DNA from: Verrucomicrobiia bacterium
Lineage (GTDB): Bacteria > Verrucomicrobiota > Verrucomicrobiia > Limisphaerales > UBA11358
Assembly (NCBI GenBank): GCA_025451535.1
Contig: JANWKE010000127.1
Location: 1 to 38,273 of the forward strand
DNA: 38,273 nt
Direction: 5' to 3'
The notes below the pieces were generated by a model. It ran no database searches. It had not been told where the DNA came from and worked only from the letters and a program-made list of their open reading frames with translations. Both the position numbers and the translations under genes were made by a program. Shown here piece by piece: positions 17,977 to 26,686 of the stretch. The stretch's first letter is position 1. Each line of letters begins with the position of its first letter.

Positions 17977-19332
17977 TTATTTTTGTGGAACGGGAAAAGA
18001 GTGCTTGAGGAAACTTTCGATCTGTGTCCAGCTTTGGCCCGTAGCGGTTTTGGTTCCGGCGGCAATGCCGGTCATATAAGCGCTGGACACGGAGGTGCCC
18101 TGAACCAGCCACGGCTGGTTGCCAAAATAAACAATGCTGTTTCCAGGCGCGGCTAAATCCACAAAGTTTCCGTAGTTCGCGTACGACGCAAGCAATCCCC
18201 GATCCACGGCAGTTACCGCCATGACACCGGGATCCGCAGCCGGATAAGTGGGTGAAGCAACCGGCTGATTGCCGGCCGCGGCAAAAATCTGAATGCCGTC
18301 GCCAATGGCCTGTTGGACCATGGCGTCCAAAATCGAACTGTCGCCGGAACTGCCGAGGCTCAAATTCAGAACGGTCGCGCCACCATTGACCGCTGCCTGA
18401 ATTCCCATCGCGACACTCCAGCTGGTGGTGGTCGCGCTCGAGCCGTAAACATCCACGGGCAGGATTTGTGCGGAGGTGGCGCCCTGCCCGCCGATGTCCA
18501 TCCCGTGCAATAAAGTATATGCCATGGCCGTGCCATGCGTAATATCACTTCCGGGCGAAGCGTCGCCGGCCACGGAAATTTGTTTGAGCAAAAATTGGTT
18601 GAGCGGGCCGTCGAGCGGCTGTACCGCCGTGTCGATCAAGCCGACAATAACCTTCCCTGAATTGCCCGGCGGATTGAGTTGCAGGTTTACCGGTGGCATG
18701 GACGCGGAGGCGAGCGCCTGCGCCGTCGGCGGCGGGTCGAAATAATAATCATGATCCACATCGGAGACATCGCTGTCGTTTTGGAGCTGGTTCAGCGCGG
18801 CGTCGGCGGAGGCGGCATCGGCAAATTGCAGTCGATAGATGCCAAACTTGTCCAGGTGGCCGGTGACTTTCGCGCCGAACATCCTGGCCAGGTCGTCGGG
18901 GTTCACGCCCGGCTTGATTTTCACGAGCAGTTCATTCGCCACGTGTTTGGCCCTGGCGGTTTTGGGCACGTGCACCAACTGCGTGGCATTTTCCATTTTG
19001 GTGGTAAAAACGTAGAGATGCGGTGCGGCATTGGTCTGTGGGACCAGGGCGAAATTGAGATCGCCGAATAACATCCGCAACGCCTCTCCGGTCGGAAGAT
19101 TTTTGAATTTGACGGAGGCGCTGTGCGTCGTGCCTGGTTCGACATAGACCCGCCAGCCGGTCTGGGCAGTGATGGCCACCAACAGATTCGACAGGCTCAA
19201 CGCATGCACGTCCGCGTCCACGCGGTCGGCGGCCTGGCGCCAGACCATCAAGTTGGTCTGCGCCCCCGCGCTAAAGTCGAACGCGAGCCACAAACAAAAA
19301 ACTATTATCGCAAATTTTCGCCACCCTTTCAC
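17977..19332 (-). CDS. Exported subtilisin-like protease with an N-terminal STN-like domain
   Basis: The 451-residue protein starts at a GTG and has a signal peptide (about 1-24). Residues about 44-110 (LSLSNLLVAITAQTGWRVYV, then LPTGEALRMLFGDLNFALV) match the secretin/TonB short N-terminal (STN) pattern. Residues about 133-198 look like a fervidolysin/I9-type propeptide (ELLVKIKPGVNPDDLARMFG ... DVSDVDHDYYF). The S8 domain follows with Asp234 (GLIDTAV), His266 (ITHGTAMA), Asn355 (AAAGNQP) and Ser414 (QGTSVSSAYMTG). The protein is short, ends with the catalytic domain and lacks the FYR-type tail of the other protease. STN domains normally occur in secretins and TonB receptors, so their fusion to a protease is unusual. 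It lies downstream of rmlB on the same strand but is separated from it by a heptamer-repeat hairpin. Confidence 0.85.
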   Translation of the reverse strand: MKGWRKFAIIVFCLWLAFDFSAGAQTNLMVWRQAADRVDADVHALSLSNLLVAITAQTGWRVYVEPGTTHSASVKFKNLPTGEALRMLFGDLNFALVPQTNAAPHLYVFTTKMENATQLVHVPKTARAKHVANELLVKIKPGVNPDDLARMFGAKVTGHLDKFGIYRLQFADAASADAALNQLQNDSDVSDVDHDYYFDPPPTAQALASASMPPVNLQLNPPGNSGKVIVGLIDTAVQPLDGPLNQFLLKQISVAGDASPGSDITHGTAMAYTLLHGMDIGGQGATSAQILPVDVYGSSATTTSWSVAMGIQAAVNGGATVLNLSLGSSGDSSILDAMVQQAIGDGIQIFAAAGNQPVASPTYPAADPGVMAVTAVDRGLLASYANYGNFVDLAAPGNSIVYFGNQPWLVQGTSVSSAYMTGIAAGTKTATGQSWTQIESFLKHSFPVPQK

Positions 19333-19338
19333 GTTTGT

Positions 19339-19406
19339 ATTTATGATTTATGATTTATGATTTTTCTCGGCTGTAACCATCATAAATCATAAATCGTAAA
19401 TCATCA
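19339..19406. repeat. Inverted heptamer arrays (TTTATGA / TCATAAA) after rmlB
   Basis: The left arm is a period-7 array of ATTTATG units (19339-19361). The right arm (19379-19406) is built of ATCATAA/ATCGTAA units. ATCATAAATCATAAAT at 19379-19394 pairs perfectly with the left arm, leaving a loop of about 17 bases. The rmlB stop codon (19404-19406) lies inside the right array. Confidence 0.85.
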
Positions 19407-20414
19407 ATGGCTTGTCACGGCCTTCACCCACGCTTGATTGTCAAGATACCATTGGATGGTTTCACGCAGGCCCTGTTCAAATTTGTGCGCGGGCGCCCAG
19501 CCCAGTTCGCGCTGAATCTTCGAAGCGTCAATGGCGTAACGCCGGTCATGGCCGGGCCGGTCCTTGACGAAGGAAATAAGCTTGCGTGAATCGCCGCCCG
19601 CCTTGGGCGCCAGTTCATCGATGAGGTCGCAGATCAATTCCACGATTCGGAGATTGGCCCATTCGTTGTGGCCGCCGATGTTGTAGGTTTCGCCGGGTTT
19701 CCCACGCGTGAACACCAGCCAGAGCGCTTCGGCGTGGTCGCGCACATAGAGCCAGTCGCGCACGTTCATGCCGTCGCCGTAGACGGGAACCGCCTTGCGC
19801 GCCAGGATGCTCTGAATGACGACTGGAATCAATTTTTCGGGAAATTGATACGGGCCGTAATTGTTCGAGCAATTTGTGATGACCGTCGGCAGGCCGTAGG
19901 TGTGATGATAGGCGCGCACGAGCATGTCGCTGGCAGCTTTGCTGGCGGAGTAAGGCGAATTTGGCGCGTGGGGAGTCGTTTCCAGGAAAAAGCCCGTCGG
20001 GCCGAGCGAACCATACACTTCAACCGTGGAAACGTGGTGGAACCGTTTATTGGTAAAATGGTTGCCCCAGATGGCACGGCACGCTTCAAGCAGGTTGAAG
20101 GTGCCGACGACGTTGGTGTGGATGAAATCACCCGGACCGGTGATGGAACGGTCCACATGCGATTCCGCCGCCAGATGCATGACGTGGGTGATGTCGTGCT
20201 GCTTGATGACCCGAAGCACGGCGGCCTTGTCGCGCAAATCCACTTTCTCGAAGATGTAATTCGGATGGCGCGAAACCTTCTTCAGGTTTTCCAGATGCCC
20301 GGCGTAGGTCAGGCAATCCAGATTCACCAGCCGCGCGACTTCGGGCCGGTCAATGGCGTGGTGGACCACGTTGGACCCGATAAACCCCGCGCCGCCGGTA
20401 ATCAGCAGATTCAT
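19404..20414 (-). CDS. rmlB: dTDP-glucose 4,6-dehydratase homologue with altered active-site motif
   Basis: The 336-residue protein is a short-chain dehydrogenase of the extended type that turns dTDP-glucose into the 4-keto-6-deoxy sugar. The ATG at 20414 is chosen because [15 protein letters not shown] is the normal start. GGAGFIG binds NAD, and Tyr155 and Lys159 form [23 protein letters not shown] and [15 protein letters not shown] are highly typical of RmlB. The motif that should read STDEVYG reads STVEVYG: the catalytic Asp is Val131, while the neighbouring Glu132 is kept. GTT instead of GAT is a one-base change. In studied RmlB enzymes this Asp helps the loss of water, so activity may be reduced or altered. 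It is the last of three sugar-nucleotide genes in the cluster. Confidence 0.93.
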
Positions 20415-20517
20415 TTTTGATTTATGATTGACGATCGATGATGGACGCGGCGATTTGACCAAAAGAGCGCGTCTTCAGTCGTCAAATCGTAAACCGCAAA
20501 TCGTAAATCGTAAATTC
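20415..20517. repeat. Paired heptamer arrays between rmlD-like gene and rmlB
   Basis: TTTGATTTATGATTGACGA and neighbouring bases (20416-20443) sit directly before the rmlB start. About 40 bases further, an array of AAATCGT units (20484-20515) is in the opposite sense and touches the stop of the preceding gene. The spacer itself carries GACGCG ... CGCGTC, which extends the possible hairpin. Confidence 0.75.
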
Positions 20518-21465
20518 TTATTCCGGTTGCCAATTCCTGAGCGAATCTTCAATAGCCTCGACGACGGGCCGGATTTTCACGCCGGTAGCCAGCAGCTTCG
20601 ACACATCGAGCACGCAATTGGAACGCAGCGTTTTGGCGGCCCGCCGGTAAAACTCAGTGTCATTCTGCCAAAATTCAAACCGCCTGGCCGGCTGCAAAAT
20701 CTTTTCCACCAGGTCCACCACCCGCCGGGTCGTTACAAAGCCGGGATTGGTCACGTTGTAAGTGCCGAACGGCGCGTGGCATTCCCACAAGTCCAGGCAC
20801 GCCCGCGCGAAATCGCCGCGATGCGAAATCGAATTCACATTGTCATAAACCTTCTCGTACCGCTGCACCTTGCTGAGGTAATTGCGCGTGTTGTCGAATT
20901 CATCGAACGGAATCCGCAACCGCCAGATGTAACTTTGTCCGACACCGGCGATGGCCTCTTCGCCCAGCGCCTTGGTGCCGCTGTAAAAGCTGCAAGGCGG
21001 ATCGCGAAAGGTGAAATTCTGCGGGTCAGTTTCGGTGAAACCGTGGATGGCATCCGGTGATTGCTCAACCAGTGAGCGCAAGTCAGGCCGGGTCAAATCC
21101 TTTTCCGCGCGCGTTTGGCCATTCAACGTCACTTTGGCTCCGGAAAAAACGCAACCGGAGGAAACGTGCCCCCACGGAATCGCGCAAATCGCACAGGCAT
21201 GGGCGATGGTTTGCGGCAACAGCGCGTTCCCCGCCAGGGTATCGGCCCTGGCGACCTCACAGGCGTCCACGTTCGGTTTGCCGGTGTAACCGGCGACGTT
21301 GACAAGGAACTCGGGCCTGGTCTTTTTCAAAAATTCCAGCAACACCTCGAACCGGCTGTAATCCACCTCCTTGCGCGACAGCGGCCGGAAAGCCCATTGG
21401 CGGCGTTGCAGTTCGCGCGCGAACGCCCCACCGATGTAACCAGATGCACCCAGAAGCAAAATCAC
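20518..21465 (-). CDS. Sugar-nucleotide 3,5-epimerase/4-reductase-like protein (NRS/ER or RmlD-related)
   Basis: The 315-residue protein starts at a GTG. The N-terminal GASGYIGG is the NAD(P)-binding loop, and Tyr161 and Lys165 (FYSGTK) are the SDR catalytic pair. It occupies the RmlD place in the cluster, but several stretches recall the plant bifunctional nucleotide-rhamnose synthase/epimerase-reductase: AGYTGKPNVDACE, SSGCVF, SFYSGTKALGEE, RNYLSKVQRYEKV, YNVTNPG and RSNCVLDVSKL. Normal RmlD has STDYVF where this protein has SSGCVF. Cys105 in that motif and Lys199 appear to match the Cys and Lys tied to epimerisation in the plant enzyme. If so, it would do both the 3,5-epimerisation and 4-reduction and make rmlC unnecessary. 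The resemblance is from memory of family sequences and needs an alignment. Confidence 0.78.
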   Translation of the reverse strand: MILLLGASGYIGGAFARELQRRQWAFRPLSRKEVDYSRFEVLLEFLKKTRPEFLVNVAGYTGKPNVDACEVARADTLAGNALLPQTIAHACAICAIPWGHVSSGCVFSGAKVTLNGQTRAEKDLTRPDLRSLVEQSPDAIHGFTETDPQNFTFRDPPCSFYSGTKALGEEAIAGVGQSYIWRLRIPFDEFDNTRNYLSKVQRYEKVYDNVNSISHRGDFARACLDLWECHAPFGTYNVTNPGFVTTRRVVDLVEKILQPARRFEFWQNDTEFYRRAAKTLRSNCVLDVSKLLATGVKIRPVVEAIEDSLRNWQPE

Positions 21466-21469
21466 ACAA

Positions 21470-21573
21470 TTGATGATTGATGATTGATGATTGATGATTG
21501 ACCGGCCAGTCGGAAGCAGGTTCGTGAGCGATACGTCGCAGCAATCGTAAATCGTAAATCGTAAATCATAAAT
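21470..21573. repeat. Paired heptamer arrays (TTGATGA and AATCGTA) between rmlA and the rmlD-like gene
   Basis: Four exact copies of TTGATGA (21470-21497, with a partial fifth) lie just upstream of the GTG start of the epimerase/reductase-like gene. After a spacer of about 41 bases, three exact AATCGTA units and one AATCATA (21543-21570) follow in the opposite sense. The rmlA stop codon lies inside this second array. Confidence 0.85.
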
Positions 21574-22450
21574 TTTTTTCCAGCCTTTTCGCTTCCGCGA
21601 CGACTTCGTTCAGGTAGGCGCGGTATTCGCAGTTTGGCATCCGGCCCGTGAGTTCCTCCAGCTGGGTCAGTTTGAGAAAGCCGGCGCGAAACGCGGCTTC
21701 CTCCGGGCAGCCGATTTTTATGCCGGCGCGTTTTTCAATCGCCTGCACGTAAGCCGAAGCGTCGTGGAGGCTGCTGCTGGTGCCGGCGTCCAGCCACGCA
21801 AAACCGCGGCTGAGCCGGTGGACATGGAGTTGCCTGCGTTTCAGATACGCAACATTCAGGTCGGAGATTTCCAACTCACCGCGCGCAGAGGGTTTTAGCG
21901 ATTTCGCGATGGCTACAGCGTTATTGTCGTAGAGGTAAAGACCCGGCACGGCATAGTCACTCTTGGGGTGTTTTGGTTTTTCCTCGATGGAAATGGCCCG
22001 GCCCTCGCCGTCAAATTCGACGACGCCATAACGCTCCGGATCATTGACGTGATAGCCGAAAATCATCGCGCCGTTCTTGAACTCGGCAATCTTGCGATAA
22101 AACACATCGCTGCCGTAGAAAATATTGTCGCCGAGAATCAGCGCGATGTTGTCCCTGCCCATGAATGATTCCGCAATCAGAAAAGCCTGGGCAATCCCCT
22201 GCGGTTTGGGCTGTTCGCGGTATTCAATGGAAATGCCAAACCGGCTGCCATCGCCGAGCATCTGTTTGAAACGCGGCAAATCGTGCGGCGTGGAGATGAG
22301 GCACAAATCACGAATCCCGCCTTCAATCAGCGTCGTCAGCGGATAATACACCATCGGCTTGTCATAGACCGGCTGAAGTTGTTTGCTCGCGACCAGCGTC
22401 AATGGATACAGCCGTGAACCGGCGCCCCCGGCCAGAATGATGCCTTTCAT
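21566..22450 (-). CDS. rmlA: Glucose-1-phosphate thymidylyltransferase
   Basis: The 294-residue enzyme couples glucose-1-phosphate with dTTP to give dTDP-glucose, the first step of the rhamnose pathway. GIILAGGAGSRLYPLT is the nucleotide-binding signature (usual form GGSGTRL), followed by SKQLQPVYDKPMVYYPL, EQPKPQGIAQAF (normally QP.P.GLAQA) and LILGDNIFYG with the metal-binding Asp. WLDAGTSSSLHDAS near the C-terminus is typical of RmlA. Length and motifs are full. It is the first gene of the minus-strand sugar cluster and starts about 50 bases after the clpC terminator. No promoter stood out. Confidence 0.95.
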   Translation of the reverse strand: MKGIILAGGAGSRLYPLTLVASKQLQPVYDKPMVYYPLTTLIEGGIRDLCLISTPHDLPRFKQMLGDGSRFGISIEYREQPKPQGIAQAFLIAESFMGRDNIALILGDNIFYGSDVFYRKIAEFKNGAMIFGYHVNDPERYGVVEFDGEGRAISIEEKPKHPKSDYAVPGLYLYDNNAVAIAKSLKPSARGELEISDLNVAYLKRRQLHVHRLSRGFAWLDAGTSSSLHDASAYVQAIEKRAGIKIGCPEEAAFRAGFLKLTQLEELTGRMPNCEYRAYLNEVVAEAKRLEKNL

Positions 22451-22554: not shown

Positions 22555-25047
22555 TCAACTGGCCACCGCGCCGGTTGCGGCGGCCTTCTGGTTGAACACC
22601 AGCTTGTCATTCCCGACCGTGACCAGGATCAGCTCGCCCTCATGCAGGTTGCCCTTGAGGATCTCCTCGGCCAGGGGGTCTTCGAGGAAGCGTTCGACCG
22701 ACCGGCGCATCGGACGCGCGCCGTATTGCGGGTCGTAACCTTTTTCGACCAGCAAATCCTTTGCCGCGGCGTCCAGTTCGAGCTTGAGATTCTTGTGGCG
22801 CAGCCGCTCCAGAACCTTGTTGACCTCCAAATCCAGAATCTGGATGAGGTCGGGCTTGGTGAACGAACGGAAAACAATCACGTCGTCCAGCCGGTTCAGG
22901 AACTCGGGCCGGAAGGTCTTCTTCGATTCGTCGAGGATTTTCTCGCGCATCTTCTCGTAGCTGCTTTCGTCGGTGATGGGCGAAAAGCCGAGCGTGGATT
23001 GCCGGCGGATCAAATCCGAGCCGACGTTCGAAGTCATCAGCACGATGGTATTGCGGAAATTCACCACGCGGCCCACGTTGTCGGTCAGTTTCCCCTCTTC
23101 GAGAATCTGCAACAGCATGTTCCACACGTCCGGGTGCGCCTTTTCAATTTCGTCGAACAACACGACGGCATACGGATTGCGCCGCACCTTCTCGGTGAGC
23201 TGTCCGCCTTCCTCGTACCCGACGTATCCGGGTGGCGACCCGATGAGCCGCGAAACGTTGAACTTTTCCATGTACTCGCTCATGTCAAGATGCACGAGTG
23301 ATTTCGAATCGCCAAACATCTGTTCGGCCATGGTCTTGGCCAAAAGGGTCTTGCCTACGCCGGTCGGACCGAGCAGCAAAAAGGTGCCGATGGGCCGGCG
23401 GGGGTCCTTCAAATCCGCGCGCGACCGGCGCAGTGCCTTGCAAATTGCGGATACGGCTTCGCGCTGACCGACGACGACCTTCTCCATTTCCTGCTCAACC
23501 GTCAGCAGCCGTTGCATCTCGCCCTGCTCCATCCGTTGCAGCGGGATGCCCGTCCATTTGGAAACAACGTGCAAAATGTCTTCCTCGTCCACCACCACGT
23601 GCTTTTCCTCACGGGCGGCGCGCCAATCGCGCAAATGGGTCTCCAGTTTTTCCTTGGCCTGTTTTTCCTTGTCGCGCATCTGCGCCGCGCCTTCGAAATC
23701 CTGGTTTTTGATGGCGCGTTCCTTCTTTCCCTTGATGTCTTCAATCTCGACTTCCATCGCCTTGATTTCCGGCGGGCGCGTCATGGTGCCGATGCGCGCG
23801 CGCGAACCGGCCTCGTCCAGCACGTCAATCGCCTTGTCCGGCAGGAACCGGTCGGTGATGTAACGGTCGGACAACTTCACGGAAGCCTCCACCGCTTTGT
23901 CGGTAAACTCGGCCTTGTGGTGCTCCTCGTATTTGTGCCGGAGTCCCCGCAAAATCTGGATCGCCTCGTCAACCGAAGGCGCCTCAACCTTCACGGCCTG
24001 AAAGCGGCGTTCGAGCGCGGCGTCTTTTTCGATGTATTTGCGATATTCATTAAGCGTGGTCGCGCCGACGCATTGCATCTCCCCGCGCGAAAGCGCCGGC
24101 TTGATGATGTTCGAAGCGTCCATCGTGCCTTCCGCCGAACCCGCGCCGACGATGGTGTGCAGTTCGTCAATGAACAAAATAATGTTCTTCGCGCGGCGGA
24201 TTTCATCCATCACCGCCTTGATGCGCTCCTCAAACTGGCCGCGATATTTCGTGCCGGCGACCATGAGTGCCAGGTCGAGCGTGACCACGCGCTTGTCGCG
24301 CAACAGGTCGGGAACATTGCCCTTGGCGATTTCCTGTGCGAGCCCTTCAACGATGGCCGTTTTGCCCACGCCGGCTTCACCGAGCAACACCGGATTGTTT
24401 TTTGTCCGGCGGCAAAGAATCTGAATGACGCGCTCGATTTCGTCCTTGCGCCCGATGACCGGGTCCATGTCGCCCTTGCGCGCAATGTCCGTGAGGTCAC
24501 GGCCAAACGCCTTAAGCGCGGGCGTCTTGATTTCGCCTTTCTTCTCGGCCGGCCCTTTCTCGCCGGCTTCCGGAATGGATGATTCCTCGCCGGTGAAATT
24601 GGGATCCAGCTCCTTCAAAATTTCCTGGCGGGTCTGCTCGATGTCCACATCGAGGTTTCGCAAAATACGCGCCGCCACTCCGTCACCTTCGCGCAACAGG
24701 CCGAGCAAAATGTGCTCCGTGCCGATGTAGGTATGGTTCAGGTTCTTGGCCTCCCGTTTCGCCAGATCCAGAACCTTCTTCACCCGCGGCGTGTAAGGGA
24801 TGTTGCCGATCATCTTCTGGTCGGGCCCGGTGCCGACCTGTTTCTCGACTTCCATGCGGACGGTTTCAAGGTCCAGCCCCATTTTCTGGAGGACATTCAC
24901 CGCCACGCCCTGGCCCAATTTAATCAGGCCGAGCAAAAGATGCTCGGTGCCGAGAAAGTTGTGGTTAAACCGATCGGCTTCCTTGCGCGCCAGCGCAAGC
25001 ACTTGTTGCGCGCGTGGCGTAAAATTACTCATGGCTTCATCGCTCAT
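22555..25047 (-). CDS. clpC: ATP-dependent Clp protease ATP-binding subunit ClpC
   Basis: The 830-residue AAA+ unfoldase feeds substrates to ClpP. Two Clp-N repeats (about 8-70 and 85-148) are followed by AAA domain 1 with Walker A GEAGVGKT (223-230) and Walker B ILFIDE. A middle domain with a UVR-like helix pair (about 425-475, [19 protein letters not shown]) leads to AAA domain 2 with Walker A GPTGVGKT (560-567). LGF in QSTLGFSP corresponds to the ClpP-docking loop. The start at 25047 may be replaced by the second ATG five codons later ([10 protein letters not shown]), which is closer to other ClpC proteins. The gene follows mcsB by 15 bases and ends at a strong terminator. In Gram-positive bacteria the N-domain recognises arginine-phosphorylated proteins made by McsB, and the gene order here implies the same. 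No CtsR gene is present. Confidence 0.97.
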
Positions 25048-25062
25048 ACTCGCTTTATTGTG

Positions 25063-26169
25063 CTATGAATTGGCGGATTTGTCCAATCCCGCCCCGCCTT
25101 TTTTCGTATTTGGCCGGCTGACGTGCTTCAACCGGTCACGCAGCATGTCTGCTCGTAGCAAGTCGCGTTCCTCCGCCGACAATTTGTCCGAAAATTGCTT
25201 CTGCAAATGGGCCGGTTGCGTCACAATAAACAGTTCATCCACGATCGGACGTTCCTCGGCCGGGAACAGCCCCAAATCCACGCCCAAACGCATCAATGAC
25301 AACAAATTCATGGTTTCCTTGGAAGAAATGCTGTGGGCGTTGGCCAGGATGCCATAGGCGCGGCCAATGTGGTTAAAAACCACCTTCGGCTTCTTCTCCA
25401 GGAGGATTTGCCGGGCATTTTCCTCGTGCTCAATGATTTGGGACAAAACCTTGTCCAGACGCTCGACAATGGTCGTTTCGGTTTCGCCGAGCGTCATTTG
25501 ATTGGAAACCTGGAATACATTGCCCAGCGCCTCCGTTCCTTCGCCGTAGAGCCCGCGCACGGCCAGCCCCAGTTTGTTGACGGATTGAATGATAGGATTG
25601 ATCTGCTCGGCCAGCACCAGGCCGGGTAGATGCAACATTGCGCTGACCCGCACCGCCGTGCCGAGATTGGTCGGACAGGCGGTCAAATAGCCCAGGTCGT
25701 TGTTGAAGGCGTAATCGAGCTTTTTCTCCAGTTCGGAATCCAGATGGTCAATCGCGCTCCACGCCTGCCGCAATTGCAGGCCCGGACGCAACGCCTGCAT
25801 CCGCAAGTGGTCTTCCTCGTTGATCATGACACAAAAACTTTCCTCGCGGTTGAAGACCAGGCCGCTGCCCGAGCCTTTGGCGGCGTGCTCACGGCTGATG
25901 AGATGGCGCTCCACCAGAATCTGTTTGTCGAGCGTGGTGAGATTGTCCATCACCTCGGAAAAGGAATCGTTCATTTCCGGCAGGCTTTCGACCGCCGGCC
26001 GGATGGTTTCCAGGACCTTCAGCCGCTCCGGCTTTTTCGCCCAGCCGGGAAACGCCGCGTCCCGTAAATTGCGCGCCAGCCGGACACGGCTGGACATCAC
26101 AATCCGGTCGTGCGGACCGTGTCGGCGCGCCGTCTCGGCGGGAGAAATGAGAAACTCATCCAATTTCAT
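25063..26169 (-). CDS. mcsB: Protein-arginine kinase McsB
   Basis: The 368-residue protein belongs to the ATP:guanido phosphotransferase family and phosphorylates arginine side chains of proteins, marking them for ClpC-ClpP. Seen are SSRVRLARNL (nucleotide-binding arginines), the loop NEEDHLR (117-123) and TACPTNLGT with Cys165 at the position of the reactive Cys. The C-terminal part holds RDLLRA (335-340), which fits the RDXXRA element by which McsB binds phosphoarginine. Length is as in Bacillus (363). A single base separates its start from the mcsA stop, so translation is probably coupled. It acts in the cytoplasm with McsA as activator. Confidence 0.95.
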   Translation of the reverse strand: MKLDEFLISPAETARRHGPHDRIVMSSRVRLARNLRDAAFPGWAKKPERLKVLETIRPAVESLPEMNDSFSEVMDNLTTLDKQILVERHLISREHAAKGSGSGLVFNREESFCVMINEEDHLRMQALRPGLQLRQAWSAIDHLDSELEKKLDYAFNNDLGYLTACPTNLGTAVRVSAMLHLPGLVLAEQINPIIQSVNKLGLAVRGLYGEGTEALGNVFQVSNQMTLGETETTIVERLDKVLSQIIEHEENARQILLEKKPKVVFNHIGRAYGILANAHSISSKETMNLLSLMRLGVDLGLFPAEERPIVDELFIVTQPAHLQKQFSDKLSAEERDLLRADMLRDRLKHVSRPNTKKGGAGLDKSANS

Positions 26170-26170
26170 T

Positions 26171-26686
26171 TTACGTCACACCCAGGCCCGTCCCGCGCGG
26201 CGTGATTTGTTTGATTTCGTCGCGCAATTGGGCGGCCTGTTCAAAATTTTCGTCTTCGATGGCCTTGGCCAGTTTCTTTTGCAGCAATTTGAGGCGGTCG
26301 GACTGCTCGCGGTTGGCGCGGAGCGCCTCCGGCACCTTGCCCGCGTGGCGGGTGCCCTTGTGCATCGTCTTGAGCAACCCCTCCAGACCTTCGGCAAAAG
26401 TCTGGTAGCATTCCGGACAGCCAAGCCGGCCCGATTTTTTGAAATCCGCCTGCGAAAAACCGCAACGCGGGCATTTCGTCTCGACGCCGCCCCCGGACTG
26501 CTCGATTTCCTGCGACGCGCCGAGGCCGAACAGAACATCCGCGTCCGCCAGTGAAAAGGAGGTCGGGTCATTGATGCCCTTGGCCTTGGCGCAGTCCTCG
26601 CACAAATCCAGCTTCTGCATCTTGTCACCCACGATCTGGGTGAGATGCACGGTGGCCGGCTTTTCCTTGCAGATGGAACACAACAT
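26171..26686 (-). CDS. mcsA: McsA, zinc-finger activator of McsB
   Basis: The 171-residue protein has four CxxC pairs: Cys3/Cys6, Cys29/Cys32, Cys72/Cys75 and Cys90/Cys93, which build the zinc fingers of McsA. Residues about 130-163 (LQKKLAKAIEDENFEQAAQL) form a UVR helix pair, as in UvrB/UvrC and ClpC. In Bacillus, McsA stimulates McsB kinase activity and links it to ClpC. It is encoded just before mcsB (1-base gap) and 78 bases after ilvE. No CtsR operator or CIRCE element is visible upstream. The small palindrome CGCC-GAATT-GGCG near 26730 could be regulatory, but this is weak. Confidence 0.92.
   Translation of the reverse strand: MLCSICKEKPATVHLTQIVGDKMQKLDLCEDCAKAKGINDPTSFSLADADVLFGLGASQEIEQSGGGVETKCPRCGFSQADFKKSGRLGCPECYQTFAEGLEGLLKTMHKGTRHAGKVPEALRANREQSDRLKLLQKKLAKAIEDENFEQAAQLRDEIKQITPRGTGLGVT

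Follow-up and report, generated by a model that had tools for sequence, protein, structure and literature searches.

Gene cluster in the window

Can a gene cluster that encodes RmlA and RmlB but no 3,5-epimerase lead to nucleotide-activated rhamnose, and which protein would then supply the epimerisation? The question is raised by three genes in the window, by which we mean the whole stretch of DNA analysed here (38,273 nucleotides from a Verrucomicrobiia bacterium). They lie on the same strand and are read, on the minus strand, in the order rmlA, a gene of the nucleotide-rhamnose epimerase-reductase (NRS/ER, below ER) type, and rmlB:

21566..22450, minus strand: rmlA, glucose-1-phosphate thymidylyltransferase (TIGR01207, 419 bits, cut-off 361)
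20518..21465, minus strand: gene of the proposed NRS/ER-type 3,5-epimerase/4-reductase (315 amino acids, GTG start)
19404..20462, minus strand: rmlB, dTDP-glucose 4,6-dehydratase (TIGR01181, 480 bits, cut-off 365; the likely start is the ATG at 20414)

The first-pass annotation of this DNA had described rmlA and rmlB without a 3,5-epimerase in the cluster, and had suggested that the gene between them resembles the bifunctional plant NRS/ER rather than RmlD. The first part was borne out by Pfam and NCBIfam scans of the window ORFs, in which both flanking genes score above their cut-offs and no rmlC was found in the rmlA/rmlB cluster. The protein encoded at 20518-21465 is a short-chain dehydrogenase/reductase (SDR) with a single domain. 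It matches the Pfam RmlD_sub_bind model at 6.5e-24, and it fails the RmlD equivalog TIGR01214 (75 bits against a cut-off of 224), so that the HMM comparison with RmlD suggested in the annotation places it below the equivalog level. The Pfam match would suit a second reading, in which the protein is a divergent RmlD that acts as a reductase only and 3,5-epimerisation is supplied by an RmlC-family protein elsewhere, namely a cupin on contig C75 of the same genome. The low equivalog score speaks against this reading, which we regard as quite unlikely on evidence given below.

Sequence and structural relatives

A phmmer search of PDB sequences with the window protein returned the Arabidopsis NRS/ER (4qqr, 8.6e-25) and the mimivirus UDP-L-rhamnose synthase (7jid, 3.7e-11) as top matches, with the first RmlD behind both at 5.1e-6; the distance between the Arabidopsis match and the best RmlD excludes chance similarity. 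The gap widened when a profile of 19 sequences was used (4qqr 7.1e-39, 7jid 1.2e-20, RmlD 2.3e-11). Homology of the window protein to NRS/ER is, in our judgement, close to certain.

An AlphaFold2 model, built from an alignment of 59 sequences, has a pLDDT of 95.2 and a pTM of 0.93. Its top structural match is 7jid, with a Foldseek TM of 0.89 (by target length) and a VIA Z of 34.5 (rmsd 1.9 over 280 residues). In the VIA comparison 4qqr (Z 30.2, rmsd 2.0) is level with the RmlDs (Z 30.7 to 30.2, rmsd 2.3 to 2.6), and when Foldseek matches are ordered by E-value it comes fifth, after two RmlDs, with a TM of 0.85 against their 0.83 and 0.80. Since 4qqr ties with the RmlDs behind 7jid, the fold favours the NRS/ER assignment without proving or deciding it, and the fold common to the window protein and RmlD is one of the points on the side of a divergent RmlD.

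Recurrence of the operon in bacterial and viral contigs

Three sets of relatives were used: the best 80 of 406 confirmed relatives in genome contigs, 11 loci from genomes of the same class, and the best 80 of at least 579 relatives in IMG/VR (L116-L195). Among the best 80 genome-contig relatives, 74 are labelled as Verrucomicrobiota and six only as 'bacterium'; their loci contain RmlA in 77/80, RmlB in 67/80, both in 66/80 and RmlC in 0/80, the flanking sequence reaching 1.2 kb in each direction in only 56 of them. RmlA lies at most 300 bp upstream in 75 and RmlB at most 300 bp downstream in 55 of these 80 loci. In all 11 same-class loci RmlB is found within 2 kb downstream of the ER gene, and RmlA follows in seven of them. 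A mis-drawn ORF or chance resemblance can be excluded, as all 80 genome-contig relatives match over most of the length of the protein and so many of their loci contain RmlA and RmlB.

The uncultivated viral loci (best 80 of at least 579) contain RmlA in 59 cases, RmlB in 44, both in 40 and RmlC in none. One of them (L174:3162-5825) carries rmlA, ER and rmlB tightly packed, the first two overlapping by 4 bases. In the 50 of the 80 viral records that were searched whole we found 28 terminase-family matches, two of them weak, and a single RmlC-family match, which is interrupted by stops. Because the terminase model also gave matches in 11 of the 14 control genomes from bacteria and archaea, it does not prove a viral origin, for which we rely on the IMG/VR classification. 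Among cultured phages there was no match at 1e-10 to two queries, the window protein and one viral ER, and a plasmid search gave one match (27%), annotated rfbD. The genes rmlA, ER and rmlB thus recur together in Verrucomicrobiota and in uncultivated viral contigs.

Other genes were recorded around the cluster. Directly upstream of rmlA (window 22555-26686) are a ClpC-like ATPase, recognised by eye, the protein arginine kinase McsB (406 bits, above the NF002194 cut-off of 385 and below the NF053707 cut-off of 500) and a McsA-like gene (136 bits, below its own cut-off of 210). Downstream of rmlB (window 17977-19332) is a subtilase-family protein with a fervidolysin-type prodomain. Homologues of the ClpC and subtilase-family proteins occur in 23/80 and 29/80, respectively, of the related loci (best 80 of 406).

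Phylogeny

A tree of 31 rows was rooted on five other SDRs and took 3/80 genome-contig, 2/11 same-class and 8/80 viral relatives, together with two RmlD-like rows (L210 and L213); its plant and mimivirus rows are partial and its branches are long. In this rooted tree the bacterial and viral ERs group with the enzymes of plants and mimivirus and apart from RmlD, with a support of 99/100, and the phylogenetic comparison suggested in the annotation thereby places the window protein with plant/mimivirus NRS/ER and outside RmlD. Constraining RmlD and the plant/mimivirus rows to one clade was rejected (AU p 0.0008), as was a clade of ER and RmlD without the plant/mimivirus rows (AU p 0.0007), the latter being the topology that a divergent RmlD would call for. 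Taken without the two RmlD-like rows, the RmlD rows do not form a single clade, and this may add to the AU rejections.

A larger tree took 12/80 genome-contig, 11/11 same-class and 33/80 viral relatives, with L210 and L213 left out. Holding all bacterial and viral ERs as one clade was not rejected (AU p 0.55); the plant/mimivirus branch may join inside or outside the bacterial and viral ERs, and no donor is named.

Proposed catalytic residues

The positions of interest in the window protein are encoded as follows:

21151..21153, minus strand: Cys105, proposed epimerisation acid/base, aligned with Arabidopsis Cys115; Cys in 171/171 relatives
20983..20985, minus strand: Tyr161 of the SDR YxxxK motif, in 171/171 aligned relatives
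20971..20973, minus strand: Lys165 of the SDR YxxxK motif, in 171/171 aligned relatives
20869..20871, minus strand: Lys199, proposed second acid/base, aligned with Arabidopsis Lys183; Lys in 171/171 relatives

All four residues are found in 80/80 genome-contig, 11/11 same-class and 80/80 viral relatives (the two sets of 80 being the best of 406 and of at least 579) and in the Arabidopsis and mimivirus enzymes. The viral relatives were scanned for with a pattern that contains the Cys, so the conservation of Cys105 among them is partly due to selection; Lys199 was part of no pattern. A glycine motif (G6/G9/G12) is present beside YxxxK in the window protein, and the family motifs TGxPNVD, RN..K, NPG and RSN are common to the Arabidopsis enzyme and, in part, to the mimivirus enzyme. 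The stretches to which the annotation had drawn attention (SSGCVF, TGKPNVDACE, RNYLSKVQRYEKV, YNVTNPG and RSNCVLD) were all found, and SSGCVF does stand where an STDYVF-type motif would be expected in RmlD: the two RmlDs aligned have Tyr at the Cys105 column, and Thr at the Lys199 column. Sequence, phylogeny and catalytic residues thus agree with the likeness to the plant bifunctional enzyme that the annotation had proposed.

The paper on the 4qqr structure reportedly named Arabidopsis Cys115 and Lys183 as the catalytic pair. We propose, from the alignment, that Cys105 and Lys199 would form the Cys-Lys pair of 3,5-epimerising SDRs; a reductase alone would leave the conservation of this pair unexplained, which is a further point against a divergent RmlD. 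SDRs that epimerise both C3 and C5 are described as sharing, at conserved positions in space, a catalytic Cys and a basic residue, the pairs being Cys145/Lys217 in GDP-mannose 3,5-epimerase and Cys109/His179 in GDP-fucose synthase (PMC2279256; PMC8787198).

The same genome encodes an ER paralogue on another contig (C120, L101:6669-7658), 58% identical to the window protein and adjoining a gene of the UDP-glucose/GDP-mannose dehydrogenase family. It keeps the Cys at position 105, but its residues at positions 199 and 184 are Arg and Gly, which suggests that its function may have changed.

RmlC and RmlD elsewhere in the genome

The genome is 97.9% complete with 4.8% contamination. A search with PF00908 found one marginal protein, the cupin on contig C75, at about 28 bits (27.9; 28.6) against a cut-off of 27. 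This protein has no NCBIfam match at E<=1e-8, TIGR01221 included, and in the alignment it keeps the RGxH histidine but has neither the Tyr nor the C-terminal Asp seen in the RmlCs aligned with it, residues whose roles in RmlC we take as given in judging it. In the same row of genes (L100:10637-14202) are, in order, a methyltransferase, an RmlD scoring above the equivalog cut-off (278 against 224 bits), the short RmlC-family cupin and a C-methyltransferase, perhaps a cluster for a C-methylated deoxysugar. The pairing of RmlD and cupin recurs in two members of the same genus (G034 and G113).

That an RmlC-family protein stands beside an RmlD on C75 is what gives the divergent-RmlD reading a candidate epimerase. 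However, we judged this cupin not to be a hidden canonical RmlC, given its lack of an NCBIfam match, the missing Tyr and Asp and its accompaniment by an RmlD and a C-methyltransferase of its own. Moreover, two other genomes of the genus (G087 and G102) have ER and RmlB yet no PF00908 match at E<=0.001. The statement in the annotation that rmlC is missing holds genome-wide for a canonical RmlC and has to be qualified by the divergent cupin. It had named an rmlC elsewhere, together with placement in the RmlD clade, as the combination that would contradict it; what the genome holds is the cupin and the RmlD of C75, with no canonical rmlC, and the window protein falls outside the RmlD clade.

Distribution of ER and RmlC among genomes

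We examined 116 genomes of the order (completeness at least 85) and found a full-scoring ER (>400 bits) in 43, of which 41 have an RmlB above cut-off, 33 of them within 3 kb of the ER. A canonical-score RmlC was defined as a match above 225 bits, 18 of the 22 such matches in the order lying beside RmlD. By this definition ER and RmlC have complementary distributions: RmlC is present in one of the 43 ER genomes (1/41 with RmlB) against 21 of the 42 other genomes with RmlB (Fisher p 5e-7, with shared descent ignored). The single exception is G044, the sole genome of the order with both, whose RmlC adjoins a response-regulator-like ORF and another long ORF (by eye), with no evident sugar cluster. 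Left out of these counts were PF00908 matches below 71 bits, ER-profile matches below 173 bits, RmlDs below cut-off, the RmlB of G014 (317 bits, likewise below cut-off) and the second fragments from four genomes that had entered the count once (G007, G062, G090 and G093).

The division between ER and RmlC has exceptions: six further genomes of the order have a lower-scoring or fragmentary ER, and RmlC and RmlD both occur in four of these six. Of the 42 RmlB genomes without a full-scoring ER, the 21 that have no canonical-score RmlC comprise two with a fragmentary ER (G062 and G090) and 19 with no counted ER (for example G013, G079 and G095); in these 19 there may be yet another route, or RmlB may serve some other purpose.

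A second score class of PF00908 matches, at 150-225 bits, has 39 members in the order, none of which lies within 3 kb of an above-cut-off RmlB or RmlD. Two members were scanned and both pass TIGR01221 (162 and 183 bits, cut-off 156), so NCBIfam would name them rmlC, dTDP-4-dehydrorhamnose 3,5-epimerase. Eight of the 39 neighbourhoods (L093-L099 and L102) contain a CDP-glucose 4,6-dehydratase homologue in 8/8 and an RfbF homologue in 6/8 cases, and from these eight we assign the class to the epimerases of CDP-deoxysugar pathways. A PF00908 protein above 150 bits occurs in 14 of the 43 ER genomes, some of which may therefore have an RmlC at their disposal, given the TIGR01221 scores of the two scanned members. 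If the CDP-sugar assignment is wrong, these 14 have RmlC, and the remaining 29 of the 43 still have none above 150 bits.

In a sample of 288 genomes from the phylum, ER was found in 35 (37 before G181 and G332, at about 52 bits, were left out), all with RmlB, most carriers having shorter ER homologues. With PF00908 at E<=2e-66 as a stand-in for the 225-bit class, RmlC is present in 0/35 ER genomes against 149/223 other genomes with RmlB, and within the class in 0/29 against 12/54 (p 0.006, with shared descent ignored). At a looser threshold of 1e-30 the counts are 6/35 against 170/223, and within the class 6/29 against 16/54 (p 0.44), where the contrast is gone; the PF00908 matches of the six ER genomes have E-values of 4e-51 to 2.9e-64. 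Thirteen of the 35 ER genomes are single contigs, and in nine of these PF00908 has no match at 1e-8, an absence of RmlC that cannot be put down to gaps in the assembly. The annotation had called a route with one combined enzyme unusual in bacteria, which does not hold within this phylum, where the frequencies given above (43/116 and 35/288) are not those of a rare gene. An ER homologue with an internal stop codon (G267:C1:26466-27352) occurs in a same-class genome that is a single contig of 2.2 Mb.

Proposed function

Taken together, these observations make it quite probable that the window gene encodes a bacterial epimerase-reductase of the NRS/ER type which would replace RmlC and RmlD together and give dTDP-L-rhamnose. 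Considered separately, a bifunctional epimerase/reductase activity appears highly probable, and dTDP-L-rhamnose is the likely product. We infer an activity and an order of steps in which RmlA would make dTDP-glucose, RmlB would convert it to dTDP-4-keto-6-deoxy-D-glucose, and the NAD(P)H-dependent SDR would use the Cys105/Lys199 acid-base pair to invert C3 and C5 and then Ser/Thr-Tyr161-Lys165 to reduce the C4 ketone. Rhamnose is the presumed sugar and dTDP the presumed nucleotide, because the RmlA and RmlB neighbours point to dTDP-rhamnose and not to the UDP-rhamnose of plants.

The stereochemistry of epimerisation and reduction is not readable from sequence, and the enzyme could instead be an epimerase/reductase, or a reductase, that makes another 6-deoxysugar nucleotide (of 6-deoxy-L-talose, 6-deoxy-L-gulose, D-fucose or quinovose). 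The Arg199 and Gly184 of the C120 paralogue raise the possibility of functional drift within the family, and related enzymes with partial epimerisation are described (PMC8787198). We nevertheless think such a product improbable, as the motifs are common to the Arabidopsis and in part the mimivirus enzymes, both named for rhamnose synthesis, and the RmlA and RmlB neighbours belong to the rhamnose pathway. Pathway calls that require RmlC and RmlD would, if the activity is true, miss dTDP-rhamnose synthesis in much of the phylum. Such ER genes are probably often named RmlD, to judge by the Pfam RmlD_sub_bind match.

Relation to earlier work

Four bacterial homologues of plant NRS/ER, all from Verrucomicrobia, were listed by Yin et al. 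in 2011, who suggested a donor that had perhaps already integrated both activities and called the origin unknown (PMC3220709). They checked in general terms whether genes for a 4,6-dehydratase, an epimerase and a reductase cluster, apparently with no description of an rmlA-ER-rmlB operon or of a lack of RmlC (PMC3220709). A 2022 review assigns these steps to two separate enzymes in bacteria and to one in plants and large DNA viruses (PMC8987622). In the open literature, subscription papers being mostly outside its scope, we found no paper on a bacterial or phage enzyme of the NRS/ER type beyond the 2011 homologues, and none on the rmlA-ER-rmlB operon or on viral copies.

The window would present an enzyme of the plant and giant-virus type, glimpsed as homologues in 2011, within what appears to be a bacterial dTDP-rhamnose operon. 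More tentatively, and with rather less than even confidence, we suggest that rmlA-ER-rmlB is a third prokaryotic rhamnose pathway in Verrucomicrobiota, that many uncultivated viruses carry it in operon form, and that this bacterial and viral pool is the kind of donor postulated for the rhamnose synthases of plants, fungi and giant viruses. The operon is a concrete, assayable candidate for a donor-type operon with both activities.

Comparison with known systems

RmlD has the same place in the cluster, the same fold and the same YxxxK motif as the window protein, but differs in the Tyr and Thr that the two aligned RmlDs have at the Cys105 and Lys199 columns, in its separate clade and in its match to TIGR01214. 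GDP-fucose synthase (GMER/WcaG) resembles the proposed enzyme in that one SDR with a catalytic Cys both epimerises C3 and C5 and reduces C4 (PMC8787198). Its basic residue is His (PMC2279256), whereas the window protein has Lys199, a position read from an alignment with 4qqr rather than with a GMER; the GMER substrate is derived from GDP-mannose, and the structural matches to GMER are weaker (8du0, E 7.4e-14; 1e7r, 9.5e-14). The RmlC-RmlD fusion described from Prymnesium is likewise one polypeptide instead of RmlC and RmlD (PMC6556577), but consists of an RmlC part fused to an RmlD part, while the window protein is a single SDR domain.

The mimivirus L780 UDP-L-rhamnose synthase (7jid) keeps the Cys and the Lys and is the best structural match, at 20-22% identity; viruses are reported to begin from UDP-glucose (PMC8987622), unlike the dTDP-sugar implied at the window cluster. 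The Arabidopsis NRS/ER (UER1; 4qqr) and the C-terminal domain of plant RHM are, like the window protein, single SDR domains, and the Arabidopsis enzyme shares with it the C105/K199/YxxxK positions and the TGxPNVDxCE, NPG and RSN motifs at about 25% identity. Plant NRS/ER is reported to favour UDP-sugars (PMC6556577), whereas the RmlA and RmlB encoded beside the window gene would imply dTDP.
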